Made by a program: the position numbers and the translations under genes
Assembly: GCF_002585305.1 (NCBI RefSeq)
Contig: NZ_NUNF01000014.1
Span: 62,001-126,000 of the forward strand
From: Bacillus sp. AFS037270
GTDB taxonomy: Bacteria > Bacillota > Bacilli > Bacillales_B > DSM-18226
Direction of reading: 5' to 3'
Length of the DNA stretch: 64,000 bases
Shown: positions 7,268 through 34,000 of the stretch, piece after piece
How positions within the stretch are numbered: position 1 is the first letter of the stretch
Layout of the letters: each line of letters opens with the position of its first letter
The notes under the pieces: generated by a model
Told to the model about the DNA's origin: nothing
The model's input: the letters and a program-made list of their open reading frames with translations, nothing else
Databases searched by the model: none

Positions 7268-7352
7268 GGAAATGATAATATTTTTCTCGTCTTCCACTAA
7301 TTTCTACAAAAGTGACATACCCTACTTTGTATGCTCTATTATTTCCTTCTTT

Positions 7353-7387
7353 AATAAAAAAACCCTATTTCTCATTAGAAATAGGGT
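7353..7387 (-). terminator. rho-independent terminator after galU
   Basis: On the minus strand an 11-bp perfect stem (ACCCTATTTCT with AGAAATAGGGT, 4-nt loop, 7362-7387) is followed by a run of seven T. It begins about 10 nt past the galU stop and separates galU from the TagF-like operon. Confidence 0.9.
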
Positions 7388-7396
7388 CTAGAAGAG

Positions 7397-8281: not shown

Positions 8282-8576
8282 ATTTATACTCCACTCCAAA
8301 TGAATTAATTTATCTACACTTTTGGACGTATTTTAGTCTAAACGAAAATGTAGGGGTTGTAAATATTTGTTCTGGAAATGAAATCCCATCTTAAAATAAA
8401 TTAATATCTTTTTAATAATCCCAAAATTTATGACATTTTCCTACTTTTTTAAATTTGTGCTATGATGTCAATTGAGAGTTTTTTAAAGAGTAGGGTGTAT
8501 TTATTTTCTTCATTATATAAAATAAAATAACGACAAAATATAGACAGTTTAGAAATACAAGTAGCAAGGAGAAAAC
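8282..8576. promoter_or_regulatory. divergent intergenic region between galU and tagH
   Basis: 295 nt, AT-rich, no open frame worth calling. On the plus strand TATGAT at 8461-8466 is a plausible -10, but no good -35 lies 16-18 bp upstream (TGACA at 8431 is 25 bp away). The 15-mer TTTTCCTACTTTTTT at 8436-8450 recurs on the minus strand upstream of the LCP gene (14235-14249). No clear operator was recognised. Confidence 0.4.
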
Positions 8577-16326: not shown

Positions 16327-16652
16327 TTGGGTTTATTAATAGTTACTCATGATTGAGGATTAAAAAAATCCTAGTTTCTTCTATTATATATATAATGTAA
16401 GTGTTTACAGTTTAATCTCAGACTCGTAATTCATCTGTCCAGTGAGTAATAGTGGTCCAAGGAAATATAGGGAATTTTAACCAAATTTAAATTCCCTCTT
16501 CTATTTTCTTACAATTCGGTGTTTAATAGAGTATGTGCAATGAGATTGTTATATTTTGAAATAGTAGTGTAATATTTTTGTTAAATTATGAAAAAAACAA
16601 CAAATTATGATATAATACTCTAAGTTTTTATTTATGCTTTTAGGAGGACGAA
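16327..16652 (+). promoter_or_regulatory. leader/promoter region of the exopolysaccharide operon
   Basis: 326 nt without a gene. TATAAT at 16611-16616 is a good -10, 36 nt before the Wzz-like start, but no matching -35 is at 16-18 bp, so an activator may be needed. A hairpin AGGGAATTT/AAATTCCCT (16469-16497, 11-nt loop) lies further upstream. It has only a weak T-rich tail and could be a fold in a longer leader or an operator. Confidence 0.45.
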
Positions 16653-18099: not shown

Positions 18100-18185
18100 C
18101 CATTCGACAATTTTCGTCCCTTTACTAGGACTTTCGATGGTGCTAGTATAATAAAGTAGGAATTAAGTGGAAATGAGTGGGACCT

Positions 18186-18950
18186 ATGATCGACTTGCAT
18201 TGTCACATATTGCCCGGGATTGACGATGGGGCAAAGGATCTGTCGGAAAGCATCCAGATGGCTCGCAAGGCTGTAGAACAAGGTATACAGACCATAGTGG
18301 CAACGCCGCATCATTTAAATAATCACTATGAAAATCCAAAGCAACAAATCTTGGAAAGAGTTGAGGAGTTAAACCGAGTATTACGGGATGAAAAGATAGA
18401 TTTAAAGATTCTCCCCGGCCAGGAGACGCGGATTTACGGGGAATTGGTAAATGGCTATGAGATGGGAGAAATTCAACCGGTGAATGGTAGTCAATATGTA
18501 TTGGTTGAGTTCTCCTCCAGTCATGTCCCGAGATACACGGAGAAGTTGTTTTATGATCTACAGGTGAAAGGACTTATCCCAATCATCGTTCACCCGGAAC
18601 GGAACCAGGAAATCATTGAACAGCCGGACCTCCTTTATAAGCTTGTTCAAAATGGGGCTTTAACTCAAGTGACGGCTGGCAGTGTTTGTGGTGACTTTGG
18701 CAGGAAAATTAAGAGTTTTTCATTACAGTTAATCGAAGCAAACTTAACACACTTTATTGCATCTGATGCTCACAATACGAGAAGCCGTACATTTAAGCTG
18801 AGAGAGGCTTTTGACCTTATCCATGAAAAGTATGGGAATGAAATGGTTTACCTATTCGATGATAACGCAGCCCTTGTGATAGAAGGCAGCAATGTTTATA
18901 AAGAAGTGCCGGAAAAAATTAAAAAGAAAAAGTTCTTTAAAATTTTTTGA
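18186..18950 (+). CDS. PHP-type tyrosine-protein phosphatase (CpsB/YwqE family)
   Basis: 254 residues from ATG 18186 (MIDLHCHILPGIDDGAKD), the conserved family start; a GTG nine bases upstream is an alternative and the ribosome binding site (GTGGGA) is weak. It is a Mn-dependent phosphatase of the PHP fold that dephosphorylates the BY-kinase. Metal ligands are visible in DLHCH, ATPHH, the E in GQETR, HPERN and SDAHN. A TATAAT at 18147 with poor -35 may give some separate expression. Gene order Wzz-kinase-phosphatase matches ywqCDE. The EAR-like RNA starts 26 nt downstream. Confidence 0.94.
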   Translation: MIDLHCHILPGIDDGAKDLSESIQMARKAVEQGIQTIVATPHHLNNHYENPKQQILERVEELNRVLRDEKIDLKILPGQETRIYGELVNGYEMGEIQPVNGSQYVLVEFSSSHVPRYTEKLFYDLQVKGLIPIIVHPERNQEIIEQPDLLYKLVQNGALTQVTAGSVCGDFGRKIKSFSLQLIEANLTHFIASDAHNTRSRTFKLREAFDLIHEKYGNEMVYLFDDNAALVIEGSNVYKEVPEKIKKKKFFKIF

Positions 18951-18976: not shown

Positions 18977-19110
18977 TTCAGGTGTTTATACCTGAACGGC
19001 GAGGCTTCCCTGTCCGTTATCCATGGAGGTACTCGGTCATACTGTGGGTCATAGGAATGGCCTTAGACGCATGTCGTCAATAGTATGGTGTGAGGACGGG
19101 TTAGATGCCC
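18977..19110 (+). ncRNA. EAR-like (eps-associated) antitermination RNA, candidate
   Basis: Densely structured intergenic RNA. Hairpin TTCAGGT/ACCTGAA (18977-18996). Stem AACGG/CCGTT around a purine-poor loop next to it. Then a three-way junction closed by CATACT (19038-19043) with AGTATG (19082-19087). It encloses GGTCAT-AGGA-ATGGCC (19047-19062) and GACG-CATGT-CGTC (19066-19078). GGACGGG (19094-19100) could also pair with the CCCTGTCC near 19008, allowing a pseudoknot. Known biology: the EAR element (Rfam epsC family) lies inside Bacillales eps/capsule operons just after the kinase genes and lets RNA polymerase pass downstream terminators. Place and strand match that exactly, and a strong terminator follows. 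Identity as EAR is inference from structure and context. Confidence 0.72.
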
Positions 19111-19127
19111 ATTTTAAAATAAAAACG

Positions 19128-19193
19128 AATAAATATCTAATGAAAGAATAAGCGTGAATCCGCTTGCAATTCCATTAGGTATTTATTTTTTTG
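19128..19193 (+). terminator. strong intrinsic terminator between EAR-like RNA and galU2
   Basis: AATAAATATCTAATG (19128-19142) pairs with CATTAGGTATTTATT (19173-19187), 15 bp with one G-U, capped by a second small hairpin AAGCG/CGCTT, then T7. It stands 65 nt before the galU2 start, inside the polysaccharide gene run, so downstream expression needs read-through or a new promoter; none was recognised between it and galU2. Confidence 0.92.
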
Positions 19194-19257
19194 CCCCAGC
19201 ACTTTAGTGGGGGAAAGAGTTTAGTAGATAAACAAATGATAGATGGGGGTATATGAT

Positions 19258-20148
19258 TTGAAAAAAGTTAGAAAAGCAATCATCCCAGCAGCTGGACTGG
19301 GGACTAGATTTTTACCAGCAACGAAAGCAATGCCGAAGGAAATGTTACCAATCGTTGATAAGCCGACTATTCAATACATAATTGAAGAAGCAGTGGCGTC
19401 AGGTATTGAAGATATTATAATCGTTACAGGTAAAGGCAAGCGTGCCATCGAAGATCACTTCGATATGGCAATGGAGCTCGAGGAGAACCTAATTGGAAAG
19501 AAAAAATTTGATCTGCTAGAAAAGGTTCAATTTGCAACGAATCTAGCAGATATCCACTACATTCGTCAGAAGGAACCCAAAGGACTTGGACATGCGGTTT
19601 GGTGTGCTAGAAACTTTATTGGGAATGAGCCATTTGCCGTTCTTTTAGGTGATGACATTGTTCAAGGCGAAACTCCTTGCCTTCGTCAGTTAATTAATCA
19701 ATATGAAGAGACCTACTCTTCAGTGATTGGCGTTCAATCGGTTCCTGACCAAGAGACACATCGTTATGGGATCATTGATCCTTCATCACAGGACGGAAGA
19801 TTGTATCAGGTTAACAACTTTGTAGAAAAACCAAAACCAGGTACAGCACCGTCGAATCTAGCGATAATGGGTCGATATATATTAACTCCAGAAATTTTTA
19901 TGTTCCTTGAGGAGCAAGAAAAAGGCGCTGGGGGAGAAATACAGTTAACGGATGCTATTCAAAAATTAAATCAAATTCAAAGAGTATTTGCTTATGATTT
20001 CGAAGGGAAACGGTATGATGTTGGTGAAAAGTTTGGTTTTGTCAAAACAACTTTAGAATTTGCCTTGCAGCATGAAGACCTCCATGATGACATGATCGAT
20101 TACTTGAAAAAACTCGTTTCTACTTTAGATATAGAAAAAGTATTGTAG
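19258..20148 (+). CDS. galU: UTP-glucose-1-phosphate uridylyltransferase (second copy)
   Basis: 296 residues from TTG 19258; GGGGG lies 8 nt upstream, whereas ATG 19243 lies within that site. Same motifs as the first copy ([34 protein letters not shown]) and nearly colinear, differing mainly in the helical segment around residues 70-85 and at the C-terminus. It makes UDP-glucose, here feeding UDP-glucuronate (ugd) and glucosyl transfer in the exopolysaccharide pathway. First gene after the EAR-like RNA and terminator. Confidence 0.95.
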
Positions 20149-20168: not shown

Positions 20169-20846
20169 TTGCCTGATTTATCAAATCAAAATGTTGTTTA
20201 CTTAGATGAACAAAATGCTAGGATTGAAGTAAATAACGGGAAGATGTATATAATAACTAAGAGATTAATTGATATCATCGGTGCTTCATGTGGAATTATA
20301 TTTCTGTGTCTTCTATTTGTTTTAATCGCCATCTTAATTAAGATTGAAGACCCTAAAGGTAAAGTTTTTTTCTCGCAAAAGCGTGTTGGATTGAATGGAA
20401 AAGAATTTAAAATGTATAAATTCCGTTCGATGGTCTCAAATGCAGAGGAGAAATTGCGAGAACTATTAAAATATAACGAAGTAACTGGTGCCATGTTTAA
20501 AATGAAAGATGACCCTCGAATAACTAGAGTTGGAAAGTTCATTAGGAAGACAAGTATTGACGAGTTACCACAGCTTTTTAATGTATTAAAAGGGGATATG
20601 AGTTTGGTAGGACCACGTCCACCACTTCCAAGAGAGGTTGCTGTTTACACTGAATTTGATAAACAACGTTTAATGGTAACCCCTGGTTGTACAGGATTAT
20701 GGCAAGTGAGTGGTAGAAATAGCGTGGGTTTTGAGGAAATGGTTGAACTAGATCTTACTTATATTCAAAATCGTACGGTATTATTCGATGCGAAGATCCT
20801 TTTTAAAACAGTTTTGGTGCTTTTTGGATCCAAGGATGCATTTTAG
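20169..20846 (+). CDS. undecaprenyl-phosphate sugar-1-phosphate transferase (priming enzyme)
   Basis: 225 residues, start TTG 20169 behind GAAGGTAGGGG. One N-terminal hydrophobic helix (about 37-60) and the bacterial sugar transferase domain: KRLIDIIGA, the KGKVFFSQKRVGLNGKEF-MYKFRSM block, DDPRITRVGKFIRKTSIDELPQ, GDMSLVGPRPPLP and TPGCTGLWQVSGRN. It attaches the first sugar-phosphate to undecaprenyl phosphate at the inner membrane face, starting each repeat unit. The short, single-helix form resembles the CpsE/EpsL catalytic half rather than the long WbaP form. Which sugar it uses is not deducible. Confidence 0.92.
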   Translation: MPDLSNQNVVYLDEQNARIEVNNGKMYIITKRLIDIIGASCGIIFLCLLFVLIAILIKIEDPKGKVFFSQKRVGLNGKEFKMYKFRSMVSNAEEKLRELLKYNEVTGAMFKMKDDPRITRVGKFIRKTSIDELPQLFNVLKGDMSLVGPRPPLPREVAVYTEFDKQRLMVTPGCTGLWQVSGRNSVGFEEMVELDLTYIQNRTVLFDAKILFKTVLVLFGSKDAF

Positions 20847-20933
20847 AGTTTATAAAAATGCAGAAAGTAGCGCTAAATATTAATTCTTCTATGATTTAAA
20901 GGAAATGGTTTAAATATATGCTGAAAGGCGAAA

Positions 20934-22139
20934 ATGATAATGGGAATGAAAAAAAATGTTGTTATTATTCATTCACTGTATTATCCCACTATAGTAGGGG
21001 GGGCAGAAATATCTACTAAAATCTTGGCAGAAACCTTATCTGCCAAATATAATATTTCTGTTATTGCAGTCGGTGGACACAAAAGTACTGATGGAATTTA
21101 TGTAGAGGAATTAAATAATGTAAAGATATATAGAATTCCTTATAATAACCTTTATTGGATTGGTGTTAAGAAAAATAAATCTTTAATTAGTAAGTTAATT
21201 TGGCATATTATTGATATATATAATCCAGTGCAATATAAATTAATAAAAAAAATATTGGGCGAAATAAAACCAGATATAATACACACGCAAAATCTACCGG
21301 GATTGAGTCTATCAGTATGGAAAGTTGGTAAAGATTTGAACATTCCTATAGTTCATACCTTAAGGGACTATTCATTGTTATCTCCCGTTGAATCCAAAAT
21401 CTTTTCAAGATTTTATAAAATGATATCAATTTCATTTAGTAGATATGTATCTGTGGTTACTGGAATATCAAATTTTATCCTTGAGCAACATTTAAGTAAA
21501 GGTATGTTTGTAAATTCTCGGAATTTTGTAATTCCCAATGTGGTAGAATCTGATGTTATAATTTCAAACAAAAAAATTGAAGATACTCCAGTTAGAGTAG
21601 CTTTTTTTGGACAATTAGCTTCAAATAAAGGATTAGAATATCTAATAAACGCAATTAGGGAAATTGATACTAGGATAGTTTCTACTTTAGAAATTTATGG
21701 AGATGGTCCTTTAAAAGAAGACCTAATGAAATTATCAATTGGTGATACTAGAATAAAATTTAATGGAAAGATTCCAAAGGAACAAATTCAATTAGCAATG
21801 TCCGATGTAGATTTGGTAATTGTCCCATCAACTTGGGAGGAACCATTTGGGCGAGTGATTATTGAGGCCTACCAGGTTGGTACTCCAGTACTGGCATCTA
21901 ATGTAGGAGGTATTCCGGAAATTATAATAAATAATTCTCATTTATTCGAACCCCAAAATATTGATTCTATTAAAGAGTCTATACTATCTTATAATAGATT
22001 ATCTGTTTATGAGAAAAGGCAGTTAAGTGAACAGTGTATTAAGTATAGTCAGTCTTTTAACACTGAAAATTTATTAATAAAACACGAAACAATATATGAG
22101 AGACTTATTAAAAGTAGAAGGAAAGAGAAAAATGATTAA
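20934..22139 (+). CDS. glycosyltransferase family 4
   Basis: 401 residues. GT-B fold: N-terminal SLYYPTIVGGAEIST loop, IHTQNLPG, and C-terminal RVAFFGQLASNKGLEYLI, then PSTWEEPFGRVIIEAYQVGTPV, the E-x7-E donor-binding motif of GT4. It adds one sugar of the lipid-linked repeat unit in the cytoplasm. Start uncertain between ATG 20934 and ATG 20940; AAAGGCG precedes both. Its stop overlaps the next gene by 8 nt (ATGATTAA), so the two are coupled. From here to 30.9 kb base composition is clearly more AT-rich than in the flanking housekeeping-like genes, typical of horizontally exchanged polysaccharide cores. Confidence 0.88.
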   Translation: MIMGMKKNVVIIHSLYYPTIVGGAEISTKILAETLSAKYNISVIAVGGHKSTDGIYVEELNNVKIYRIPYNNLYWIGVKKNKSLISKLIWHIIDIYNPVQYKLIKKILGEIKPDIIHTQNLPGLSLSVWKVGKDLNIPIVHTLRDYSLLSPVESKIFSRFYKMISISFSRYVSVVTGISNFILEQHLSKGMFVNSRNFVIPNVVESDVIISNKKIEDTPVRVAFFGQLASNKGLEYLINAIREIDTRIVSTLEIYGDGPLKEDLMKLSIGDTRIKFNGKIPKEQIQLAMSDVDLVIVPSTWEEPFGRVIIEAYQVGTPVLASNVGGIPEIIINNSHLFEPQNIDSIKESILSYNRLSVYEKRQLSEQCIKYSQSFNTENLLIKHETIYERLIKSRRKEKND

Positions 22140-23415
22140 TGAAGTCAGTTTCATGACTAATTCCAAATCTAGAAATAAGATTCTAAGTTACTTATTTGTG
22201 TTCACTCTTCTTATATATATATCTTTTTATGGAACATTGTCTATATTTATTAATAATTTTCTCTTTAATGTAACCAAAGATGTAGCTTTAATTTTATTAG
22301 CGATTTACTCAATAGCAAAAGTACGATTATATCTTGGGAATAATTACCTAAATGTCTTAATTGCTACACTTCTTACTTTAACTATATTTGGTTTTTTAGG
22401 TACTATTCTTTCAGGTAATTATATAGGATATATTTATGGGTTTAAAATAACTATTCTACCGATTTTTTTGCTACTCTTTGGGGTTTTAATATCAATGAAT
22501 ACAAGTTTTATAAAATACGAAAAGTTATTCTTGTTGATTTTTATTATAAGTATTGCTATTTGGATTATGCAGTATTTTTTAGGAATCGAGCAGTTGATAA
22601 ATATGGGATTTAATTATGGGGTGAATGTAAAAACTTATCTAGGTGATTTACCAAGGCTACCGTCTATGATGGGAGTACCTGAAAGTTATGCTTTTACTCT
22701 AGCTCTTTTAGGTTTATTGCTAGCTAATGGAGAACTATTTTCTGGATCTAAGTCTTCACAATCTTTAATAAGAATTTTCACAATCACTTTTTTAAGCCTA
22801 GCAACTATTAGAAACGCAATAATACTTTGGATAATAAGTGAGATTATGGTTTTTTTGTTTAGTTTTAGGAATAAAAGCGTTAAGAATTTTTACTTATATG
22901 CTTCGTTTCTTCCATTCTCTCTAATTATAATTCTTGTTTTAATTTATTATTATATATTTTTTACGAATCATAATTTTAGCTTGTTTGCATATGATTCTTT
23001 AATCGATCGTCTGGATCATTGGGGGCTTTATTTGCCAGGTATTTCTTCTATCAATGGTTGGATTGGATTCGGATTAGGTAGCATAGGAGCTGCAAGTAGA
23101 AGGACTGCAACTCTAGGATATAATTCATTAGATTATGCTGTTGATAATCAGTATATAGCACTTTATCAGCAGTTCGGTATAATTGGTTTCTTAGTATTTC
23201 TTATCCTAACTTTCCTTATTTTAACTTTACTGTATAAGAATGCTATTAACAATAAACGTAAAAATGCGCAAGTTGCATTTTCAATATTTACAGCTACTCT
23301 AATTGTATCTTTTTTTGGGAACAGCTTAGAGGTTTTCCCTTTTAATATTATGCTATGGTTAATTATTGGTAATGGTATTTCACAACCTATTCATTTAGGA
23401 ATGAAGCGTAATTGA
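22132..23415 (+). CDS. Wzy-type O-antigen/exopolysaccharide polymerase, putative
   Basis: 427 residues from ATG 22132 with GAAGGAAAG just upstream; it overlaps the preceding transferase stop by 8 nt. About 10-12 hydrophobic helices and one larger extracytoplasmic loop between about residues 270 and 345 (including DHWGLYLPG and GFGLGSIG) give the Wzy/WaaL polymerase layout. It should join repeat units on the outer face of the membrane. Such proteins have little sequence conservation, so the call rests on topology and position beside a flippase and a Wzz protein. A terminator overlaps its stop codon. Confidence 0.78.
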   Translation: MINEVSFMTNSKSRNKILSYLFVFTLLIYISFYGTLSIFINNFLFNVTKDVALILLAIYSIAKVRLYLGNNYLNVLIATLLTLTIFGFLGTILSGNYIGYIYGFKITILPIFLLLFGVLISMNTSFIKYEKLFLLIFIISIAIWIMQYFLGIEQLINMGFNYGVNVKTYLGDLPRLPSMMGVPESYAFTLALLGLLLANGELFSGSKSSQSLIRIFTITFLSLATIRNAIILWIISEIMVFLFSFRNKSVKNFYLYASFLPFSLIIILVLIYYYIFFTNHNFSLFAYDSLIDRLDHWGLYLPGISSINGWIGFGLGSIGAASRRTATLGYNSLDYAVDNQYIALYQQFGIIGFLVFLILTFLILTLLYKNAINNKRKNAQVAFSIFTATLIVSFFGNSLEVFPFNIMLWLIIGNGISQPIHLGMKRN

Positions 23416-23441
23416 TTTTATTAATTCAATTACGTTTTTTT
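23407..23441 (+). terminator. intra-operon terminator overlapping the wzy stop
   Basis: CGTAATTGA (23407-23415, including the TGA stop) pairs with TCAATTACG (23426-23434), then T7. The 228 nt that follow up to the flippase are very AT-rich and hold no convincing promoter. Confidence 0.85.
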
Positions 23442-23669
23442 ATTGTTCCTTTATTCTGGAATATTAAAAAATAATTGCTGTCATTTAAATAGGCTAATTT
23501 AAAATAGTTAGTTGAATTTTAGTAATAAAATATATCAAGAGTATGAAAAGTAAATAATCGGTCAAATAAAATATAATTTAAATGTTAAATAACTATTTTG
23601 AGTAAATGAAATAAATACAATATTTTGTTTTTAGGTAAAGTAATTCACTTGTAAAGGTTAGGTTAAAAT

Positions 23670-25112
23670 GTGATGCTGAAAAATTCAATTTGGTCATTTA
23701 TAAACATAATTGGAATACAGATATTTGCTGTAATAGTTAATGCTTTACTTGCGAGGATATTATACCCAGAGATTTTTGGAATTCTAGGTATGGCAACAGT
23801 ATTTACAGGTTTAGTTTTAGTTTTTCAGGATTCAGGATTAAATGCTTTTTTAATTCATAAATCAAATATTAGTCAAAAAAATATAAATGCAATTTTTTGG
23901 CTTAACATCCTTATATCGCTATTATTATCTTTGTTACTGATTTTGATTGCTACTCCTGTTTCTAATTTTTATCAACAACCTGAAGTTTCAACAGTAATTT
24001 ATTATGTTGCATTAGGAGTAATTATTGGATCTTTTGGGATGACATATCGAGCAGTGTTGGTGAAAAATAGGGAGTTTAAGAAACTTACAATAATTGATAT
24101 GGTTGCGGAGTTAGCAAGTAGTGTCATGTCCATTACATTAGCAATATATCATTTTGAATTATTAGCAGTAACAGGTAAGTTATTAATGAGGCCTTTATTC
24201 CAATCTGTACTTCTGTTAATAACCTCTGGTAAATATTTTCTAAATAAGCCATCTTTTCATAATATTAAAGAAATGATCAGCTATAGTAGTAGAATTTTGG
24301 GGTCTCAGATATTTATTTATTTTAATAATAATATTGATTATTTTTTAATAGGTAAATTACTTGGCAGTAAGAGTCTTGGATTATATACTATTGCATTTCA
24401 ATGGAGTGTATTAGCTCGATTTTATATTGCTGGAGCGATTTCAAAAGTGGCTTTCCCTGAAATTTCTAAACACAAGGATGATTTAGATTTTGTGAGGAAT
24501 TTGTACTTAAATATTATAAGCAGAACAAGTTTTTTAACGTTTCCAATATGTATTGGTCTATTAATAGTAGCACCTGAGTTTATTAAAATTGTTTATGGTG
24601 ACAATTGGGAAAGTGCAATACCAGTCCTTCAAGTCTTGTTAATTGCAGGTATGATTAGTTCAATCATAAATGTTGGTGGGGCTGTATTTAATGGGCTTGG
24701 AAAACCAGAAATAGATATGTGGCTAAATATAATTTCTTTTGTATTTCTAGGAATAGCAATCTTTATAGGTTCAAATTTCGGAATTTTAGGTGTTGCATTA
24801 GGCATACTGATTAGATCATTAATTTTTGGTTTTGTACAAATATATATTATTAACAAAACTATTAGGCTTCCACAAATTATCTATTTAAATTCTTTATTGC
24901 CTAATCTTTATAGTACGATAATAATGGGCGTCTCTTTATGTATTGTAAGGTTTTACTTTATAGGAGAATCTGTATTATTAAATTTAATCATTATTGTTAC
25001 ATTAGGTATCTCTCTATATATATTTACCTCTTATTTTATTAATAAAAGTGAATATATATGGTGGAAGAATAAGTTAATACCAAGTACTAAAAAGTATAAG
25101 TTAAATATTTGA
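23670..25112 (+). CDS. Wzx-type flippase (MOP/polysaccharide exporter family)
   Basis: 480 residues with 12 or more hydrophobic helices. The N-terminus (SIWSFINIIGIQIFAVIVNALLARILYPEIFG) and the later GSKSLGLYTIAFQWSVLARFYI segment match the WzxC/TuaB branch of polysaccharide flippases. It moves undecaprenyl-linked repeat units across the membrane for Wzy. Start GTG 23670 or the ATG immediately after it; AAAGGTTAGG lies 7 nt before the GTG. AT-rich codon use like its neighbours. It is preceded by a terminator, so its transcription probably depends on read-through from upstream. Confidence 0.9.
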   Translation: MMLKNSIWSFINIIGIQIFAVIVNALLARILYPEIFGILGMATVFTGLVLVFQDSGLNAFLIHKSNISQKNINAIFWLNILISLLLSLLLILIATPVSNFYQQPEVSTVIYYVALGVIIGSFGMTYRAVLVKNREFKKLTIIDMVAELASSVMSITLAIYHFELLAVTGKLLMRPLFQSVLLLITSGKYFLNKPSFHNIKEMISYSSRILGSQIFIYFNNNIDYFLIGKLLGSKSLGLYTIAFQWSVLARFYIAGAISKVAFPEISKHKDDLDFVRNLYLNIISRTSFLTFPICIGLLIVAPEFIKIVYGDNWESAIPVLQVLLIAGMISSIINVGGAVFNGLGKPEIDMWLNIISFVFLGIAIFIGSNFGILGVALGILIRSLIFGFVQIYIINKTIRLPQIIYLNSLLPNLYSTIIMGVSLCIVRFYFIGESVLLNLIIIVTLGISLYIFTSYFINKSEYIWWKNKLIPSTKKYKLNI

Positions 25113-25172
25113 TTTTTCTATGTATTAGGAAATGCCATTTATTTAAGAGTAACAACTAGAAGGGGAAAAGAA

Positions 25173-26216
25173 ATGAAAATTGCAATTATTTCAAGATATT
25201 TACCTAGTGGATCAAAGGGTGGTGTTGGATATCAAGTACATTATTTATCCAATCATCTCGTGAAAACAGGACATGATGTAACGGTATATTCAATGTTTGA
25301 AAAGCCAGTTGATGCATTATACGATGTTGTAAAAGTTTCTATAAACAAACCTAAGCAAAAACTTTTGAAAGTATTTGCTTTTGCCGTTGAATTAAATAAA
25401 CAAGATTTTTCTCAGTATGATATCATCCATTCACATGGTGATGAATATTTATTGTGGGGGAAAAAGAAACCAATAATAAGAACATTTCATGGATCTGCCA
25501 TTGCCGAGGCAATACACAGTAAAAATTTAAAGGGATTTATTAGACAGATGATTTTATACCCATTTGAATTTTTATCCTTAATTCGTTCCGATTATTCAGT
25601 AGGAGTATCGTTAAATACTAAGAAATGCATTCCATTGATTAACGAGGTTATTCCAAATGGAGTTGATATCCATTCCTTTGAAAAAAATAATGTTAAAAAA
25701 AGTTCGGAACCCTCAATTTTATTTGTTGGAACAATAGAAGGAAGAAAAAGAGGTAAGTTATTAGTAAAATGCTTTAATGAAATCATTAAACCGGCTTTCC
25801 CAGATGCAAAGTTATGGTTAGTTTCTGATCAACCGGTTCAAGGTGAGGGAGTGGTAAATTATGGTAGAGTCGATACAAACACTCTAATTGACCTTTATAG
25901 TAGTTCATGGATCTTTTGTTTGCCTAGTAGTTATGAGGGGTTTGGAGTCCCTTATATAGAGGCGATGGCTGCAAGTTCAGCTGTTGTGGCAACTCCGAAC
26001 ATGGGGGCCAAGGAGATACTTAAAAATGGTGAATTAGGTATAATTGCTCGTGAACATCGTTTGGGTGAAGAAATAATACAATTATTAGGCGGTATGGAAA
26101 AAAGGAATGAATTCATAAATAAAGGTAGAAATGAAGTACAAAAGTATAGTTGGGATTGCGTTTCAAGTAGCTATTTGAAACTATATAAAAACCTCGTAAA
26201 AAAAAATAATAAATAA
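25173..26216 (+). CDS. glycosyltransferase family 4
   Basis: 347 residues, start ATG 25173 behind AGAAGGGGAAAAG. N-terminal RYLPSGSKGGVGYQVHYL, IHSHGDEYL and RTFHGSA are typical of the acceptor domain. The donor domain shows ILFVGTIEGRKRGKLL and PSSYEGFGVPYIEAMAA, the GT4 E-x7-E motif. It transfers one sugar to the lipid-linked oligosaccharide in the cytoplasm. It follows the flippase on the same strand after 60 nt. Donor sugar unknown; GDP-mannose and UDP-sugars are all made by enzymes in this locus. Confidence 0.88.
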   Translation: MKIAIISRYLPSGSKGGVGYQVHYLSNHLVKTGHDVTVYSMFEKPVDALYDVVKVSINKPKQKLLKVFAFAVELNKQDFSQYDIIHSHGDEYLLWGKKKPIIRTFHGSAIAEAIHSKNLKGFIRQMILYPFEFLSLIRSDYSVGVSLNTKKCIPLINEVIPNGVDIHSFEKNNVKKSSEPSILFVGTIEGRKRGKLLVKCFNEIIKPAFPDAKLWLVSDQPVQGEGVVNYGRVDTNTLIDLYSSSWIFCLPSSYEGFGVPYIEAMAASSAVVATPNMGAKEILKNGELGIIAREHRLGEEIIQLLGGMEKRNEFINKGRNEVQKYSWDCVSSSYLKLYKNLVKKNNK

Positions 26217-26237
26217 TAGTATAAAAAGGTGATAGTG

Positions 26238-27392
26238 TTGACACGCAGATTATTTGTAAGTCTAGATTTTCCGCCAGAAAGAGGGGGAATTCAAAACTAT
26301 GTTTATGGGATTGTATCAAACCTAAATCCACATGAATCATTCGTATTAACATCGGATCATATTGGGGAAGACAATTATAGCGAATTTGATAAATCTCAAG
26401 ATTTTAAGATTTTTCGGACTGCTTTATCAGGTAGAAAAAGTATTTTTAAGAAATTAACGTCAATCTTAATATTAATTTATAAATTAATATACTTGAAGTT
26501 CAAAGTAGGTTACAAAGAGATACACTTTGGAAATGTTTTTCCAATTGGGTTGGTAGGGCCTTTAATGAAGAATCTATTAAATATACGGTATGTGGTATAT
26601 ATTCATGGATTAGATGTTCTTAGTTTAAAAAGGAAATCTAAGTTTTCTTATATCTTATTATTATTTATCTTAAAAAATGCTAACAAAATAATCTGTAATA
26701 GTAGCTATACCAAGAATATAATTCTTAATATGGGAATAAAAGAAAAAAAAGTGGCCATAATATCACCTGGTATAGATGTAGAAAGTTTTAAGAGTGAGAA
26801 TAAGAAAAATTTATTAATTGATAATTATAAACTTTATGGAAAAAAAGTATTACTGACTGTTTCTAGATTAGTCGAGAGAAAAGGACATGATATGGTCTTA
26901 GAATCCTTAAGAACTTTAGTGAATGAAATTCCTGATATATGTTATGTTATTTGTGGTGATGGCCCTGATAGGTCAAGGTTAGAGCATCTTGTAAAAAAAT
27001 ATAGTTTAGAAAGTTCAGTGATTTTTACAGGAAGTCTTCCCAATGAAGAAGTAGATGCTTTATATAAAGCTGCGGATCTATTTATCATGCCAAGTAGAGA
27101 AATTAAAGATAAAGGTGACGTTGAAGGCTACGGTATCGTTTTTCTTGAGGCAAATTATCATAAATTACCTGTAATTGCTGGTAATAGTGGTGGAATAAGT
27201 GACGCAGTATTAGATGGGGAGACAGGTTTTCTAGTAGATCCAATAAATTACTATGAAATAACAGATAAAATTAAAAAACTTTTATTAGATCAGGAATTAT
27301 CGGTTGAAATTGGGGAAAAAGGATACAGTTGGGTTGTAGATAATTGTCTATGGAAACATAGAGTGGAACAATTACAACAACTGAAGATTTAA
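26238..27392 (+). CDS. glycosyltransferase family 4
   Basis: 384 residues from TTG 26238, chosen because AAAGGTGA ends 5 nt upstream; the GTG at 26229 is inside that site. LDFPPERGGIQNYVYGI and the YIHGLDVL segment mark the acceptor domain. LLTVSRLVERKGHDMVLESL, VICGDGPDRSRLE, and GDVEGYGIVFLEANYHKLPVIAGNSGG mark a PimB-like donor domain. Such enzymes often use GDP-mannose (family knowledge), which fits manC and manA in this locus, but donor use here is inference. Same operon as its neighbours. Confidence 0.88.
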   Translation: MTRRLFVSLDFPPERGGIQNYVYGIVSNLNPHESFVLTSDHIGEDNYSEFDKSQDFKIFRTALSGRKSIFKKLTSILILIYKLIYLKFKVGYKEIHFGNVFPIGLVGPLMKNLLNIRYVVYIHGLDVLSLKRKSKFSYILLLFILKNANKIICNSSYTKNIILNMGIKEKKVAIISPGIDVESFKSENKKNLLIDNYKLYGKKVLLTVSRLVERKGHDMVLESLRTLVNEIPDICYVICGDGPDRSRLEHLVKKYSLESSVIFTGSLPNEEVDALYKAADLFIMPSREIKDKGDVEGYGIVFLEANYHKLPVIAGNSGGISDAVLDGETGFLVDPINYYEITDKIKKLLLDQELSVEIGEKGYSWVVDNCLWKHRVEQLQQLKI

Positions 27393-27570
27393 CAAATAAA
27401 ACCCTTATCTTGTCTAATTCATAGTTTTTGGGGAAATTTTAAAAGCTACTACGCAATTAAAGTTCTACCATCTTAGGAATTTAAACACACTATAGCACTA
27501 TATATCAAACCACATGGATTTTATTTTTATGAAGGTTGGTGGTTTATCATTATTTCTATGGAGGGAATTT

Positions 27571-28710
27571 ATGAATAGGAGATTTGGAGAATTAGATTCC
27601 ATACGAGGTTTAGCAGCCGTAACAGTTGTTTTGTCACATAGTATCACAATTTCTGGATTAGTAGCTCCGGGAACAAATTTTGCAAGTATATTTAATATGA
27701 TTATTGTAAACTCACCGTTGAAAATTTTATTATTAGGCCATGAAGCAGTAATCCTATTTTTTATTTTAAGCGGTTTTGTACTTTCCCTTTCCTATTATAG
27801 AAATGCTAATCAAACATACTTTTCCTATATTATAAGAAGATTTTGTAGAATTTATATACCATATTTATGTGCAATATTATGTGGCATTCTAATGAGAATT
27901 AGCTTTTCAAAAGATATATTTCCAGAGTTATGGAATACTCATATAGACTGGGGAGTAATTTTAAATCATATTTTTTTACTTGGTATGTTTAATCAAAATG
28001 CTTTCGATCCGGTGGTGTGGTCATTAGTTCATGAGATGCGAATCTCTATAATCTTTCCTTTTCTGATACTGTTAATTAATAAGTTCCATTGGAAAGTCAA
28101 TATTGTATTTGGAGTGATATGCTCTTTATTAGGGATATCTCTTCATTATTTATTTAAGAATAAATTGGATTTATATACGAATTATTATGATTCTATGCAT
28201 TATATTCTAATGTTTACAGTAGGTGCCTTACTAGCAAAATATAGTCTAGATTTAATAAAAATTTATCAAACAAAATCTACATGGATTAAATTTCTATTCT
28301 TTGTTTCAGGATTATGTTTTTATATTTACTCTAGGGCGGTAGTTATGAGGTTTCTTGATGACTCTTTACTAATCACTCTGGTTTCGGATTGGGGAACAAT
28401 GATTGGCGGAGCTATTATTATTATCACTTCAATAGCTGAAAAGAGGGCATCAAAAATCTTATTAATTAAACCTATATCGTATATAGGAAAAACATCTTAT
28501 AGTATATATTTATACCATTTGATAATATTCCTAACTTTAAAAAACCTATTAAATGGGATGTTAAGTAATTGGTTAATTTGGTTATTAGGGATGTTATTTT
28601 CGTTATTAGTATCTACTATTATGTATTTTATAATCGAAGAACCTAGTATTAGTATAGGTAAGAAACTCACAAAAGTTAAGTTTGGAAATGGTAATAAATC
28701 AGTCGCATAA
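27571..28710 (+). CDS. acyltransferase family 3 membrane protein (O-acyltransferase), copy 1
   Basis: 379 residues from ATG 27571, with ATGGAGGG 5 nt upstream; longer in-frame starts lack a site. About ten transmembrane helices. The N-terminal RFGELDSIRGLAAVTVVLSH with its R-x10-H pattern, and GHEAVILFFILSGFVLSL, are hallmarks of OafA/NodX-type acyltransferases. These move acetyl or similar groups across the membrane onto extracytoplasmic sugars. A same-length homologue lies at 36133-37272. Probable job: O-acetylation of the exopolysaccharide. Confidence 0.9.
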   Translation: MNRRFGELDSIRGLAAVTVVLSHSITISGLVAPGTNFASIFNMIIVNSPLKILLLGHEAVILFFILSGFVLSLSYYRNANQTYFSYIIRRFCRIYIPYLCAILCGILMRISFSKDIFPELWNTHIDWGVILNHIFLLGMFNQNAFDPVVWSLVHEMRISIIFPFLILLINKFHWKVNIVFGVICSLLGISLHYLFKNKLDLYTNYYDSMHYILMFTVGALLAKYSLDLIKIYQTKSTWIKFLFFVSGLCFYIYSRAVVMRFLDDSLLITLVSDWGTMIGGAIIIITSIAEKRASKILLIKPISYIGKTSYSIYLYHLIIFLTLKNLLNGMLSNWLIWLLGMLFSLLVSTIMYFIIEEPSISIGKKLTKVKFGNGNKSVA

Positions 28711-28723
28711 ATGGAGGAGACTT

Positions 28724-29785
28724 GTGGAAATTTTTATAAATGGTAGATTTTTAACCCAAAAAATCACCGGAGTCCAAAGATTTGCATTAGAGATTATTAA
28801 GAGGATCAACCAATACACAGAATGTAAGGTAATAGTTTTAGTTCCAAAAAATTACAATTATATTCATGCTATAAGAGATGTTGAGGTAAGAAAAATAGGA
28901 GTTAATTCAGGTCATTTATGGGAACAAATCGATTTATACAAATATGTGAAGTCTAAACCGCTAATAAATCTATGTAATACTGCACCTATTATAAAACGAA
29001 ATCAAATAGTTGTTATTCATGATACAGCTGTTTATTCTGCACCTAACGGTTTTTCGAAATTATTTAAGATTTGGTATAAAGTTCTTTTTTTCTTTATAAG
29101 TAAATTATCAAAAAAAATTTTAACTATATCAAATTTCTCTTCAAAAGAAATACTAAAATATTTAAATATAAGTAAAACAAAGCTTGCTCAAATTAGTGAA
29201 GGTACTGAGCATATTAAAGAAGTTAAAGAAAATAAAGATGTTCTTGGAAAATATGGTTTGGAGAAGGGTAAATATGTATTCGCTGTTAGTAGTTTAAATC
29301 CAAATAAGAATTTTGAGGCACTAATAAAAGCTACTCAATTTTTCCAAGAAAAAAGTTTCAACATTGTTATCGCTGGAGGGACAGATCCGAAAGTTTTTGG
29401 GATTTCGAACTTTGAGGGAAATAATATAAAATATTTAGGTTATATAACAGATGAGGACTTAAAGGGTTTATATATGAATGCGGGATGCTTTGTATTTCCT
29501 TCAATATATGAAGGTTTTGGTTTACCACCACTTGAAGCGATGTCAGTAGGTTGTCCAGTAGTTGTATCTAGAATTGGGCCCATCCCTGAAGTGTGTGAAG
29601 ATGCAGCGATATATTTTGATCCTTATGATGAAAGAGATCTTGCTAATAAGATTCTTATGGTAATGAATGATGAGTTACTAAAAAAGGAATTACAAAGTAA
29701 AGGATACCAACAAGCACAAAAGTTTTCATGGCAAAACGCATCACGTCAATTGGCCAATCACACTAGTTGTCTTAATTTTGAATAG
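28724..29785 (+). CDS. glycosyltransferase family 4
   Basis: 353 residues from GTG 28724, chosen for GGAGGAGA 3 nt upstream; only 13 nt separate it from the acyltransferase stop. FINGRFLTQKITGVQRFALEI and VVIHDTAVY are typical of the MtfB-like mannosyltransferase branch. The donor domain has FAVSSLNPNKNFEALI, YLGYITDEDLKGLY, and PSIYEGFGLPPLEAMSVGCPVV with the E-x7-E motif. MtfB relatives add mannose from GDP-mannose in other bacteria, consistent with manC downstream; the substrate here is inferred only. Confidence 0.88.
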   Translation: MEIFINGRFLTQKITGVQRFALEIIKRINQYTECKVIVLVPKNYNYIHAIRDVEVRKIGVNSGHLWEQIDLYKYVKSKPLINLCNTAPIIKRNQIVVIHDTAVYSAPNGFSKLFKIWYKVLFFFISKLSKKILTISNFSSKEILKYLNISKTKLAQISEGTEHIKEVKENKDVLGKYGLEKGKYVFAVSSLNPNKNFEALIKATQFFQEKSFNIVIAGGTDPKVFGISNFEGNNIKYLGYITDEDLKGLYMNAGCFVFPSIYEGFGLPPLEAMSVGCPVVVSRIGPIPEVCEDAAIYFDPYDERDLANKILMVMNDELLKKELQSKGYQQAQKFSWQNASRQLANHTSCLNFE

Positions 29786-29822
29786 TTTAGTTAATTTTTA
29801 TTTAAAGAAAGGAGGAATATAA

Positions 29823-30899
29823 TTGAGGGTACTTCATATAGGTGAATATATTAAAGGTGGAGTTGCAACATATATAAGAGAAGTTGTAGACTTTCAAATT
29901 TCAAGAAAAGAAATTACTGATATATATTTAATGCAAAGTAGTTCAAATTCAGAAGTAACTTATAAATTACCAGATACCCACTTAATTACTTATAATTATA
30001 AGCGGAAGATTCCCTACTTTATAAAATCTTTATTTAAAATTAATAAGGAGATAAAAAAATTAAATCCTGATATTATACATGTTCATAGTACCTTTGCCGG
30101 AGTTTTTGTAAGACTACCATTACTTTTTTATAAGAGGGATTTTAAAGTTATTTATTGCCCACACGGTTGGGCTTTTTGTATGGAGACTTCAGAAATTAAA
30201 AGGAAAATTTATTTGGCAATAGAGAAACTACTGGCTAAGAGAACGGATTTAATTATAAACATATCTGAATACGAACAATTTGAATCAATAAAAAGAGGGA
30301 TATCTAGAGATAAATTACTATTAATTAATAATGGTATTTCTAATCAAAGGGAGATAAGAAATATACAATTGGATCTTGATAAAAACAAAATTAATATTTT
30401 ATTTGTGGGTAGATTTGATAAACAGAAGGGTTTAGATATCTTGTTAAGTTTTTTAAAAACTTATGATAATAATGCTTTAAGATTTTACATTATTGGTGAC
30501 AATGTACTAGAAAACATCGATATTGAGATACCTTCTAGTGTTATTACCTTGGGTTGGATTGATAATAGTAAAATTGATTCTTATTACAGTCTGTTCGATG
30601 CAGTTATAATTCCTTCTAGATGGGAAGGATTTGGACTTGTGGCAATTGAAGCGATGAAAAATAAAAAGGCTATTATTGTAAGTAATAGAGGTGCATTACC
30701 TGATTTTGTTAAGGTCAATAATGGTTATGTTTTTGAACTTGAAAATTTAGAGACACTAGAAATAATATTAGATTCATTAAACAAAGAGGAGTTAGTCCAA
30801 AAAGGTAATAAGGGATTTGAATTATTTAATAGTTGCTACACCAGTATACGAATGAATGAAGAAATTCTTAATTGCTATGAAGAACTATTACAAGAATAG
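29823..30899 (+). CDS. glycosyltransferase family 4
   Basis: 358 residues, start TTG 29823 behind AAAGGAGG. LHIGEYIKGGVATYIREV and IHVHSTFAGVF are acceptor-domain features; NILFVGRFDKQKGLDILL and PSRWEGFGLVAIEAMKNKKAII give the donor site of GT4. The GGVATYI start resembles EpsD/EpsF-like transferases of Bacillus exopolysaccharide clusters. Last of the transferase block; the next gene makes GDP-mannose. Acceptor and donor unknown. Confidence 0.87.
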   Translation: MRVLHIGEYIKGGVATYIREVVDFQISRKEITDIYLMQSSSNSEVTYKLPDTHLITYNYKRKIPYFIKSLFKINKEIKKLNPDIIHVHSTFAGVFVRLPLLFYKRDFKVIYCPHGWAFCMETSEIKRKIYLAIEKLLAKRTDLIINISEYEQFESIKRGISRDKLLLINNGISNQREIRNIQLDLDKNKINILFVGRFDKQKGLDILLSFLKTYDNNALRFYIIGDNVLENIDIEIPSSVITLGWIDNSKIDSYYSLFDAVIIPSRWEGFGLVAIEAMKNKKAIIVSNRGALPDFVKVNNGYVFELENLETLEIILDSLNKEELVQKGNKGFELFNSCYTSIRMNEEILNCYEELLQE

Positions 30900-31026
30900 T
30901 TATTATTAAAATGTTAAATTATGTATCATATTGAAAATAATTAAATATGTAAAATTCTTTTAAGACACGTATTTAAGCACCAATTTTGGTATGTATACTC
31001 TAAAAACAGGAAATCAGGAGGACAAA

Positions 31027-32403
31027 ATGAAATTAGTTTTATTATCAGGCGGCTCAGGTAAACGATTATGGCCTTTATCCAATGATGCAAGGTCAAAGCA
31101 ATTTTTGAAAGTGTTACTTAATGAAGATAACGAGTTACAGTCAATGGTACAAAGAGTTTGGGGGCAATTAGAGAAATTAGGATTGACTGAATCAGCGGTA
31201 ATTGCAACAAGTAAGTCCCAAGTAGAAATGCTTCAAAACCAAATTGGTAAGGATGTCCCTATAATTGTTGAGCCAGAAAGAAGGGATACATTTCCTGCAA
31301 TAGCTCTTTCAGCTTCTTACTTATTTTCTAATGGAATAGCAGCTCGAGACGAGATTATAGGTATTTTACCAGTTGATCCATATGTAGAGGATAAATTTTT
31401 TGCTAGATTATTAGACTTAGGAGATATATTAAATTCATCTGAAGCAGATTTGGCTCTAATGGGGGTACAGCCAACATTCCCTTCTGAAAAATATGGTTAT
31501 ATTGTTCCAGATAAAATACTATCTACTGATAGCTTTGTAAAAGTTAGTCATTTTAAAGAAAAGCCAAAAACTGAAGAGGCAAAATTATTATTAGAGCAAA
31601 AAGCATTGTGGAATTGCGGTGTTTTTGCATTTAAACTTAATAAGATTATTTCTTTATTAGAGCAAAAAGGGTTACCAACAAATTATGAAGAATTATCAGC
31701 TAAGTACGGTCTTTTACCAAAAATAAGCTTTGATTACGAAGTAGTAGAAAAAACTGAGAATATTATTGCAATTCCATATGAAGGCCAATGGAAAGACTTA
31801 GGTACATGGAATACCTTAACGGAAGAAATGGGGACTAATATTCTTGGTAAAGCACAGGTAAGTGAAGATTCTAAAAATGCACATATTATTAGTGAGTTAG
31901 ACATACCAATTTCGGTACTTGGATTGTCAAACATTTTAGTAGCAGCTAGTCCTGATGGGATACTAGTTACTGATAAGGATTCAAGTCCAAGGGTGAAAGA
32001 ATTAGTCGGTAACCTAGATCAAAGACCTATGTACGAAGAGCGTCGCTGGGGATGGTATCGCGTCTTAGATTATAATAAATATGAGGAGCAAAATGAGGTA
32101 TTAACCAAACGTATAAAAATATCAGCTGGAAAAAATTTAAGTTATCAATACCATAAATATCGAAGAGAAGTTTGGACTATTGTAAATGGTGAAGGAGTTC
32201 TTCTTTTAAATAATGAATTCAAAGTTATTAGACCTGGGGACATAGTAGAAATTCCAATTGGAACTAAGCATGCTGTTAAGGCTGTTACCGATTTAGAGTT
32301 TATTGAGGTACAAACGGGTACTCAATTAGTAGAAGAAGATAATCATCGTATTTTCTTATCATGGGAAGAGATTGAAGCAAATGTCTATTCACTAATTAAT
32401 TAG
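31027..32403 (+). CDS. manC: mannose-1-phosphate guanylyltransferase with C-terminal cupin domain
   Basis: 458 residues from ATG 31027 (TCAGGAGG 6 nt upstream). The N-terminal nucleotidyltransferase domain shows LSGGSGKRLWPLSND and SKQFLKV, then VEPERRDTFPAIALSA and FKEKP. The C-terminal part from about residue 335 (RRWGWYRVLDY, then SYQYHKYRREVWTIVNGEG, PGDIVEIPIGTKHAV) is a cupin of the type II phosphomannose isomerase kind. It makes GDP-mannose from mannose-1-phosphate and GTP, and the cupin may add isomerase activity. Downstream manA supplies mannose-6-phosphate. The usual GGSGTR loop reads GGSGKR here, a common variant. Confidence 0.93.
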   Translation: MKLVLLSGGSGKRLWPLSNDARSKQFLKVLLNEDNELQSMVQRVWGQLEKLGLTESAVIATSKSQVEMLQNQIGKDVPIIVEPERRDTFPAIALSASYLFSNGIAARDEIIGILPVDPYVEDKFFARLLDLGDILNSSEADLALMGVQPTFPSEKYGYIVPDKILSTDSFVKVSHFKEKPKTEEAKLLLEQKALWNCGVFAFKLNKIISLLEQKGLPTNYEELSAKYGLLPKISFDYEVVEKTENIIAIPYEGQWKDLGTWNTLTEEMGTNILGKAQVSEDSKNAHIISELDIPISVLGLSNILVAASPDGILVTDKDSSPRVKELVGNLDQRPMYEERRWGWYRVLDYNKYEEQNEVLTKRIKISAGKNLSYQYHKYRREVWTIVNGEGVLLLNNEFKVIRPGDIVEIPIGTKHAVKAVTDLEFIEVQTGTQLVEEDNHRIFLSWEEIEANVYSLIN

Positions 32404-32611
32404 TTGTTCTTTCTGTAGCTCTACGAAAACAGGTAGACTATTTAATAATGCAGCCAATGTAATTATTATTATGTAATATCTTAAATATTGAACTGTAGGT
32501 ATACAATTAATTAAAAAGGATTAATGTATCAATATAATACATGCTGTAATATAAATATAGGAATCTGATTTGCATAGTATGTTACCAATAAATAAACTTT
32601 TAAAAAGTACT

Positions 32612-32640
32612 TTGACAGTTACAGTTGTTTTATCTAATAT
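32612..32640 (+). promoter_or_regulatory. sigma-A promoter of ugd
   Basis: Perfect -35 TTGACA (32612-32617), 17-bp spacer, TAATAT (32635-32640). It lies 43 nt before the ugd start, so ugd, and perhaps pgcA by read-through, can be transcribed independently of the upstream transferases. Confidence 0.8.
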
Positions 32641-32683
32641 TATTTTTTCATAGTCGAAACTATTTAAAAAGGTGGAATTAAAA

Positions 32684-34000
32684 TTGAAAATTGCTGTTGC
32701 AGGAACTGGATATGTTGGCTTAGTAACCGCGGTATGTTTGGCAGAGCATGGGCATTTCGTTTCTTGCGTAGATATAGATGAAAGAAAAGTGGCATTAATG
32801 AAGTCAGGGATTTCTCCCATTTATGAACCAGGGCTTGAAGAATTAATGATAAAAAATATGGATAAATTGACATTCACAACAGATTACAAAGCAGCATATA
32901 AGGATGCAGATGTTATATTTATTGGAGTAGGAACTCCAGAAAAACATGATGGTTCGGCTAATTTAGCTTATGTATTTACCGCTGCTGAACAAATTGCACA
33001 AAGTATTGAAAAAGATTGTATTGTTGTTGTGAAATCAACTGTACCTATTGGGACGAATGAAAAAATTGATTATTTGGTTAAAAATAATCTTAATTTTAAT
33101 GTAAATGTATCAATTGCTTCAAATCCTGAATTTCTTTCACAAGGTACAGCGGTGAGAGACACCTTATGTGCGTCTAGGATTATAATTGGAGTAGAAGAAG
33201 AATTAGCAGCTCAAGTATTAAAGGATGTGTACAAGGATTTTGGTGCTCCTATCCTTGTTACAAATCGAAAGAGTGCAGAAATGATTAAATATGCTTCAAA
33301 TGATTTTTTAGCATTAAAAATCTCTTTTATAAATGAAATTGCTAACCTTTGTGAAATTATTGGAGCAGATATTGAAGATGTAGCCCAGGGAATGGGATAT
33401 GATAGTCGCATAGGAAATCAATTTTTAAAATCAGGAATTGGTTATGGGGGCTCTTGCTTTCCAAAAGATACTAAAGCTCTGAATTGGCTTGCAAACTTCC
33501 ATGACTATGAATTAAAGACTATTAAAGCTGCAATTGAAGTAAACGAAAACCAAAAGTTAAAATTAATCAAAAAATCCCGGAAATATTTTAATACCTTAAA
33601 AGGTTTAAATATAGCTGTATTAGGTTTAACCTTTAAACCAGGTACAGATGATTTAAGAGAAGCACCATCATTAGTAAATATTCCATTAATGCTTGAAGAT
33701 GGAGCAAATGTTAAAGCATGGGATCCTGTTGGAGTCGATAACTTTGAGAAGTTTATTCCTAATGGTATAACATATTGCCTAACGATTGAAGAGACTATTA
33801 AAGATGCAGATGTATGCTTTATCTTTACTGAGTGGAATGATGTAAAAGATTTTGACTTAAACAAATATAAAGAGCTAATGAAAAGACCAATTATTTTGGA
33901 TGGAAGAAACTGTTATGATATTGCTAGTGCTAAGGATGCTAATTTAGTTTATGATTCAATTGGAAGAGAAACGGTTAATAGTGTAGAGGTACTTGTATAG
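32684..34000 (+). CDS. ugd: UDP-glucose 6-dehydrogenase
   Basis: 438 residues from TTG 32684, with AAAGGTGG 8 nt upstream. NAD-binding GTGYVGL at 7-13, YEPGLEE, the STVPIGT and SNPEFLSQGTAV blocks, and the catalytic Cys 258 in GIGYGGSCFPKDT are all present. The C-terminal LGLTFKPGTDDLREAPS completes the family pattern. It oxidises UDP-glucose twice to UDP-glucuronic acid, giving the polymer acidic residues. B. subtilis homologues are TuaD, Ugd and YtcA. It uses GalU product and has its own promoter. A hairpin terminator follows. Confidence 0.95.
   Translation: MKIAVAGTGYVGLVTAVCLAEHGHFVSCVDIDERKVALMKSGISPIYEPGLEELMIKNMDKLTFTTDYKAAYKDADVIFIGVGTPEKHDGSANLAYVFTAAEQIAQSIEKDCIVVVKSTVPIGTNEKIDYLVKNNLNFNVNVSIASNPEFLSQGTAVRDTLCASRIIIGVEEELAAQVLKDVYKDFGAPILVTNRKSAEMIKYASNDFLALKISFINEIANLCEIIGADIEDVAQGMGYDSRIGNQFLKSGIGYGGSCFPKDTKALNWLANFHDYELKTIKAAIEVNENQKLKLIKKSRKYFNTLKGLNIAVLGLTFKPGTDDLREAPSLVNIPLMLEDGANVKAWDPVGVDNFEKFIPNGITYCLTIEETIKDADVCFIFTEWNDVKDFDLNKYKELMKRPIILDGRNCYDIASAKDANLVYDSIGRETVNSVEVLV

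Follow-up and report, generated by a model that had tools for sequence, protein, structure and literature searches.

An EAR RNA flanked by a 5' hairpin and a sequence-conserved terminator-like hairpin in an exopolysaccharide operon of Bacillus sp. AFS037270

In bacteriophage lambda, the antitermination site qut lies just before a promoter-proximal terminator that gates a long operon, and the factor acting there, Q, is a protein. The EAR element (epsC RNA, RF01735) is reportedly the subject of 2010 papers by Irnov and Winkler and by Weinberg et al. According to excerpts of PMC7858274, EAR causes polymerase to read through the terminators of the eps operon as well as foreign terminators, and acts on several terminators at distal sites. 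The put element of phage HK022, as portrayed in part of PMC9378689, is a cis-acting RNA of about 70 nt with two stem-loops, which leads polymerase to ignore terminators without needing a dedicated protein. EAR resembles it in this mode of action but is presumably not of the put family. Another antitermination factor, LoaP, is described for Bacillus velezensis in an excerpt of PMC12691694.

The locus presented here lies in a 64,000-nt stretch of DNA (the window) in which an exopolysaccharide operon extends along the + strand from approximately 16.65 to 34 kb (Table 1). An earlier note on this DNA had claimed an EAR within the operon, and the covariance-model check that it had set beforehand was run and returned a strong match to RF01735 (E 1.7e-14, model positions 1-117), the sole Rfam family scoring over its cut-off in the window. 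Judged by this match, the RNA is a genuine EAR of the known kind. It shares with EARs the fold, the conserved loops, the pseudoknot and the location in an exopolysaccharide operon. What sets it apart is an additional hairpin at its 5' end (P0) and, immediately behind it, a terminator whose sequence is conserved (the gate). These two flanking elements, found in Neobacillus and nearby genera, are what is novel relative to known EARs. A literature search that did not extend to the primary EAR paper retrieved no report of an EAR-proximal terminator or of EARs in phages, and priority is not claimed because that paper lies outside the search.

Table 1. Features of the exopolysaccharide operon around the EAR; positions refer to the window
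Feature	Position	Strand	Evidence or remark
Possible promoter of the operon, ATGAAA-17-TATAAT with TG ahead of the downstream hexamer	16588..16616	+	10/12; weak, scan near chance
EpsA-like chain-length protein (PCP)	16653-17402	+	Pfam Wzz; TIGR01006 206.8 bits, under cut-off 296
EpsB-like tyrosine kinase	17383-18099	+	TIGR01007 over cut-off
CpsB/CapC-type phosphatase, last gene before EAR	18177..18950	+	Pfam PF19567, 216.8 bits
P0 hairpin abutting EAR 5' end, outside Rfam model	18977..18996	+	Stem TTCAGGT..ACCTGAA
EAR (epsC RNA, RF01735)	18997..19111	+	cmscan 92.5 bits, gathering cut-off 42
Predicted terminator (gate) with an AT-rich outer stem of 15 bp, an inner hairpin that covaries, and T7	19128..19193	+	
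galU, first gene behind gate	19258..20148	+	TIGR01099 404.6 bits; TTG start by conservation
Exopolysaccharide genes that would need read-through	20169..34000	+	Family matches
Second terminator-like hairpin, end of the 22096-23415 ORF	23397..23450	+	-17.8 kcal/mol, T-tract

Several structural details of the note could be followed up in the same way. Both strands of its three-way junction, CATACT at 19038-19043 and AGTATG at 19082-19087, fall within the Rfam consensus structure. The pseudoknot it had considered possible is backed at the family level by covariation: in an alignment of 108 of 127 distinct EARs, 51 cells are changed on both sides between columns 1-4 and 18-21, a value reached by none of 500 shuffles, and the window EAR retains three of the four pairs. 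According to Weinberg et al. (PMC2864571, in a figure legend), a pseudoknot between the first four EAR bases and the first loop had been predicted in work by others, and we take it to be the one tested here.

The eps/capsule setting was likewise recognized correctly, with genes for a PCP, a kinase and a phosphatase upstream and for GalU, transferases and a flippase downstream. Beyond galU, the operon encodes a polyprenyl glycosylphosphotransferase, glycosyltransferases, a flippase, an acyltransferase, an NTP transferase/mannose-P isomerase and a UDP-glucose dehydrogenase family protein, and no family match was obtained for 22096-23415. The window resembles a piece of chromosome from the Neobacillus group, the nearest relatives of its phosphatase being encoded at two loci of Neobacillus cucumis, with identities of 85 and 86%. 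Placement of the EAR after the phosphatase gene, to which the note had drawn attention, holds true in the window but is not unusual, as 37 of 80 phosphatase loci have a full-length EAR profile match that starts no more than 300 nt past the phosphatase match. At a larger scale, EARs were found in 61 of 398 genomes sampled from the class of Neobacillus bataviensis (G003) and in 9 of 398 sampled at the phylum level, all nine of which were already in the class sample.

The 7-bp hairpin that the note had counted as part of the RNA is present, but it stands outside the Rfam EAR model and looks like a lineage-specific extension. In Neobacillus-group loci, the end of a P0-like stem is no more than two bases away from the first base of the EAR. 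A stem score of 6 or higher was reached in 24/25 group loci, in 15/98 other EARs and in 62/1000 mononucleotide shuffles; for a score of 8, the corresponding counts were 16/25, 5/98 and 9/1000, the other EARs being counted in both cases without L097, L100, L105, L108, L109, L146 and L163 (same lineage or repeats). The stems vary in sequence between loci, and P0 might stabilize the EAR by stacking on the pseudoknot helix.

The gate hairpin begins after a gap of 16 nt. The 15-bp terminator with T7 described in the note is indeed there, with an outer stem (19128-19142/19173-19187), an inner stem and seven Ts at 19186-19192, and its distance of 65 nt to galU agrees with the homology-based TTG start (the ORF list gave 19243). 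For the segment 19112-19200, the folding energy is -22.4 kcal/mol, with a z of -5.1, and none of 200 shuffles is as stable. A hairpin scan of the + strand between 16.5 and 36 kb turned up no stronger hairpin with a U-tract than the gate; a simpler terminator scan, restricted to loops of 3-8 nt, did not list it. A stable hairpin with an immediate U-tract, as expected of an intrinsic terminator, is thus present at 19128-19193, whereas the stem is not GC-rich.

Conservation of the gate is concentrated in its arms. Across the window and its 20 nearest loci, which were chosen by phosphatase nearness without reference to the motif and are therefore free of motif-selection bias toward conserved arms, the two arms are 93.2 and 96.1% identical, compared with 68% for the inner part and 79.2% for the EAR. 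Among 13 galU-type loci (this and the next comparison used 23 motif-picked loci, without L019 and L022), identity amounts to 93 and 97% in the arms, 80% in the EAR, 69% in the spacer and 58% in the leader behind the gate, with values of 56% at third and 97% at first and second codon positions of galU and, with the aligner unchanged, 51% for shuffled hairpins. Between galU-type and EpsC-like loci, the arms are 93-94% identical and the first gene 51%, the gate being kept with either gene behind it. Ten gates outside the training set described below, mostly from other genera, have arms that are 72-73% identical, and their EARs are 72% identical.

Pairing is also maintained. An alignment of 26 gate sequences shows pairing in 92.8% of its cells and both-side changes in 17, and neither value was reached by any of 500 shuffles. 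Four of the five pairs with both-side changes belong to the inner stem, while 9 of the 18 outer-stem pairs are invariant and one is unpaired in 19 of the 26 sequences, so that the covariation rests mainly on the inner stem. Searched against Rfam, the gate yielded no family over cut-off, only three microRNA families far under theirs.

No conserved promoter was seen between the gate and galU, where the leader is little more alike among the 13 loci than the shuffled hairpins are; a promoter-like match at 19229-19257 (9/12) came from a scan that was near chance (113 found, 101 expected). With the EAR 16 nt before the strongest U-tract hairpin detected on this strand of the region and no conserved promoter seen behind it, a gate is the economical reading. 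It is probable that P0, EAR and gate form a cassette in which EAR-modified polymerase passes the gate into the polymer genes and otherwise stops after the control genes. Polymerase arriving from upstream of epsA would always transcribe the three control genes, and the cis-acting EAR would then convert the elongating enzyme to a termination-resistant form. Once the folded EAR had engaged polymerase, the gate would be ignored, as would the terminator-like hairpin at 23.4 kb, and the polymer genes would be transcribed to about 34 kb, a distance of about 15 kb; if the EAR were not folded or engaged, transcription would stop at about 19190. Read-through at the window EAR is assumed by analogy with work on B. 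subtilis as summarized in reviews. From the identity of the EAR, the layout, the conservation of the gate, its inner-stem covariation, the recurrent P0 and the linkage of gate to EAR, all of them read from sequence, we infer that the EAR acts on the gate and that stopping is the default. The arrangement of an antitermination site followed by a terminator is like that of lambda qut, although Q action needs a protein and EAR, as far as known, is RNA alone. Speaking against this reading are the AT-rich composition of the hairpin (27% GC overall), unlike that of textbook terminators, arm conservation that exceeds the needs of plain termination and fades with distance, the many EARs without a gate, and the gate-like hairpins without an EAR in L015, L214 and L215. 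If correct, the locus would provide a compact native test construct, in which a natural EAR and the terminator that it acts on, only 16 nt away, come in one short fragment.

The conserved arms raise the question of what reads them. Since arm identities of 93-96% would not be needed for termination alone, a separate sequence-specific RNA- or DNA-binding factor might read the gate, which would then be a regulated attenuator with EAR as a partner rather than the sole antagonist. The contrast between these arms and the inner part (68% identical, across the window and the 20 nearest loci), whose stem nevertheless keeps pairing, favors such a factor, as do the gate copies without EAR in L015, L214 and L215 and the second copies in L018 and L002. 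No candidate protein emerged, however: the LoaP family scored over cut-off in none of 20 related genomes, each of which has one NusG-like match, and on this basis LoaP is disfavored as the gate reader in these genomes. With no more than one mismatch allowed, the arm 15-mer was counted 90 times across 14 genomes, 25 times in gate hairpins or their extra copies and 65 times elsewhere, compared with 56 for a backward control, which likewise speaks against such a factor. A dedicated arm-reading factor appears somewhat unlikely.

Linkage of the gate to the EAR was assessed with R1, a covariance model built from 26 training hairpins that had been picked by a motif expression (30 rows, 4 repeats removed), a procedure that favors conserved arms. 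R1 finds a single place in the window (88.9 bits), plus a mirror match on the minus strand. In 20 EAR-bearing genomes, with 150 of 2564-8708 candidates scored per genome so that copy numbers are lower bounds, it locates at least 19 places, distributed over 17 genomes, and in each of these genomes one place immediately follows an EAR. Because 16 of these 17 EAR-linked places are training sequences, what is informative is how rarely the model turned up anything else. Three genomes (G016, G018 and G019) have an EAR but no R1 match among the 150 candidates scored. Across the 398 class genomes (13 candidates scored in each, counts again being lower bounds), strong matches occur in four, all EAR-bearing and all represented in the training set; the 337 genomes without an EAR match contain no strong match and two weak ones (36 and 40 bits). 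Over 62 sources, comprising the window and 61 of the 80 phosphatase loci, R1 gives 33 + strand matches with E 0.002 or better, of which 23 were in training and 32 sit 12-217 nt behind an EAR. Nine of the ten matches outside training lie 19-217 nt behind an EAR, and the tenth is in L015. A mobile repeat or generic genomic terminator that happened to lie behind the EAR would be palindromic and AT-rich with a few extra copies, as the gate is, yet the usual single place per genome behind the EAR and the lack of strong matches in the genomes without one (both lower-bound surveys), together with the arm 15-mer counts, disfavor this explanation and leave it highly implausible.

The gate does not represent EARs at large. 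Apart from five weaker matches that were left out, the class survey comprises 64 EARs, 34 of which are followed within 140 nt by a hairpin with an energy of -20 kcal/mol or lower, compared with 10/64 at upstream, 13/64 at mid-gene and 23/384 at shuffled controls. Strong hairpins with a U-tract follow 6 of the 64 (controls: upstream 0/64, mid-gene 2/64, shuffles 1/384), and a looser terminator test gave 28 of 64 versus 14 upstream and 15 mid-gene. In a larger set weighted towards Neobacillus, 74 of 129 EARs have a hairpin of this strength within 140 nt, 30 of them with a U-tract (controls for the hairpin: upstream 15/129, mid-gene 18/129, shuffles 23/774); this set was reduced from 146 rows to 130 by dropping L098, L176, L177 and 13 duplicates, and to 129 by dropping L087, which has too little downstream sequence. 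In loci of the L128-L135 type, the EAR is followed some 50 nt later by the start of galU, with no gate in between. The generalization that a terminator stands behind every EAR was accordingly rejected: strong hairpins are common, but because a U-tract is uncommon behind class-survey EARs, the gate is regarded as a lineage feature and not a family rule.

Strong hairpins without a U-tract behind many EARs, and the fact that the gate palindrome also scores on the minus strand, would suit an element for mRNA processing or 3'-end protection, which would yield more epsA-epsB-phosphatase message than message for the polymer genes while EAR acted on distal terminators only, in line with the account for B. 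subtilis. In each of the 26 aligned gate sequences, however, the stem is followed by four or more Ts, a feature for which termination accounts and processing does not, and we regard the processing explanation as quite improbable. A riboswitch-like attenuator, in which UUAGAU of the EAR 3' loop pairs with AUCUAA of the gate 5' arm, draws on a 6-nt complementarity that does exist in the window; in alignments inspected by eye, however, the arm changes in L012, L016, L017 and L018, and the EAR loop in L003 and L025, without a change in the partner. Competing base pairing between EAR and terminator was rejected because the complementarity is not maintained across loci, and the chance that it governs the gate seems negligible.

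Nearly all EAR loci from the genome survey (82/83) have at least one tblastn match to exopolysaccharide proteins. In the exception, L178 (genome G263, EAR at 8001-8104), tblastn matches are instead to the regulator encountered upstream of viral EARs (see below), TerL and HNH, and this locus is probably a prophage. Pattern scans of IMG/VR for EAR cores retrieved 14 distinct contigs that score 79-107 bits with the Rfam model; these viral EARs are handled as 15 loci (L231-L245), two being pieces of one contig, and the evidence consists of the IMG/VR contigs and the one genome locus. Among eight contigs tested, the gene directly upstream of the EAR belongs to phrog_21810 in seven and to phrog_248 (transcriptional activator) in L240, and the downstream genes tested include integrase-like, HNH, terminase small and large subunit and tail protein genes. 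Of 14 viral upstream regions, two of which (L231 and L236) are near-identical, 12 carry a box of the TACAGT or TACATT type at a distance of 28-42 nt from the EAR, and 12 show an 11-bp periodicity (p 0.04 or better), the exceptions being L238 and L240. A stem abutting the EAR with a P0 score of 6 or higher occurs in 9 of the 14 contigs. Among the 13 viral loci with 250 nt of downstream sequence, a terminator-like site lies within this distance behind the EAR in seven, compared with one of 13 mid-region controls, which lends further support to the EAR-gate reading.

Blastn searches of named phages (INPHARED) with the window EAR and two viral EARs, and a tblastn search with one upstream regulator, gave no match; in plasmids, two weak EAR-like blastn matches were obtained, in Paenibacillus and Arthrobacter records. 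As a possibility that we consider doubtful, P0, EAR and terminator might constitute a portable processive-antitermination cassette common to exopolysaccharide and phage late operons, the arms in the Neobacillus group being read in addition by some further factor. The phage EAR would then be preceded by an activator-type promoter, with its 11-bp repeats and TACAGT box, and followed by the late genes, in the manner of qut and Q but through RNA alone. If this were true, the arm-reading factor would be a second input on slime production in Neobacillus-group operons. Should the phage EARs be confirmed, they would join HK022 put as another type of phage RNA and offer simple genetics for the way in which EAR alters RNA polymerase.

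Several individual loci deserve mention. At 8760-8931 of L015, a gate hairpin is kept behind the phosphatase and no EAR was detected, an apparent EAR loss. Gate-like hairpins without a nearby EAR are found ahead of an unannotated ORF in L214 (8612-8677) and ahead of a 608-aa ORF with an EpsC-like start and a PGT homologue in L215 (7969-8034). Second gate copies lie within L018 (11082-11147, E 6.6e-10) and L002 (10710-10771, E 0.027); they came to light in the arm 15-mer count and the R1 search of the phosphatase loci, not in the R1 genome searches. The interval between EAR and EpsC-like gene contains a 12-13-bp palindrome without a U-tract in L111, L112 and L116, which in L112 and L116 takes the form TCGGTTTAGCTG/CAGCTAAACCGA. 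In five Gottfriedia and Bacillus loci (L048, L050, L055, L060 and L063), the EAR profile match at about 8783-9001 is split by approximately 100 extra nt, and the two of these that were scored with the Rfam model (L048 and L060) reach 92-95 bits. Finally, one 2.0-Mb genome carries two EARs about 0.5 kb apart (G077:C42:9106-9221 and 9758-9876), scoring 56 and 102 bits, respectively.
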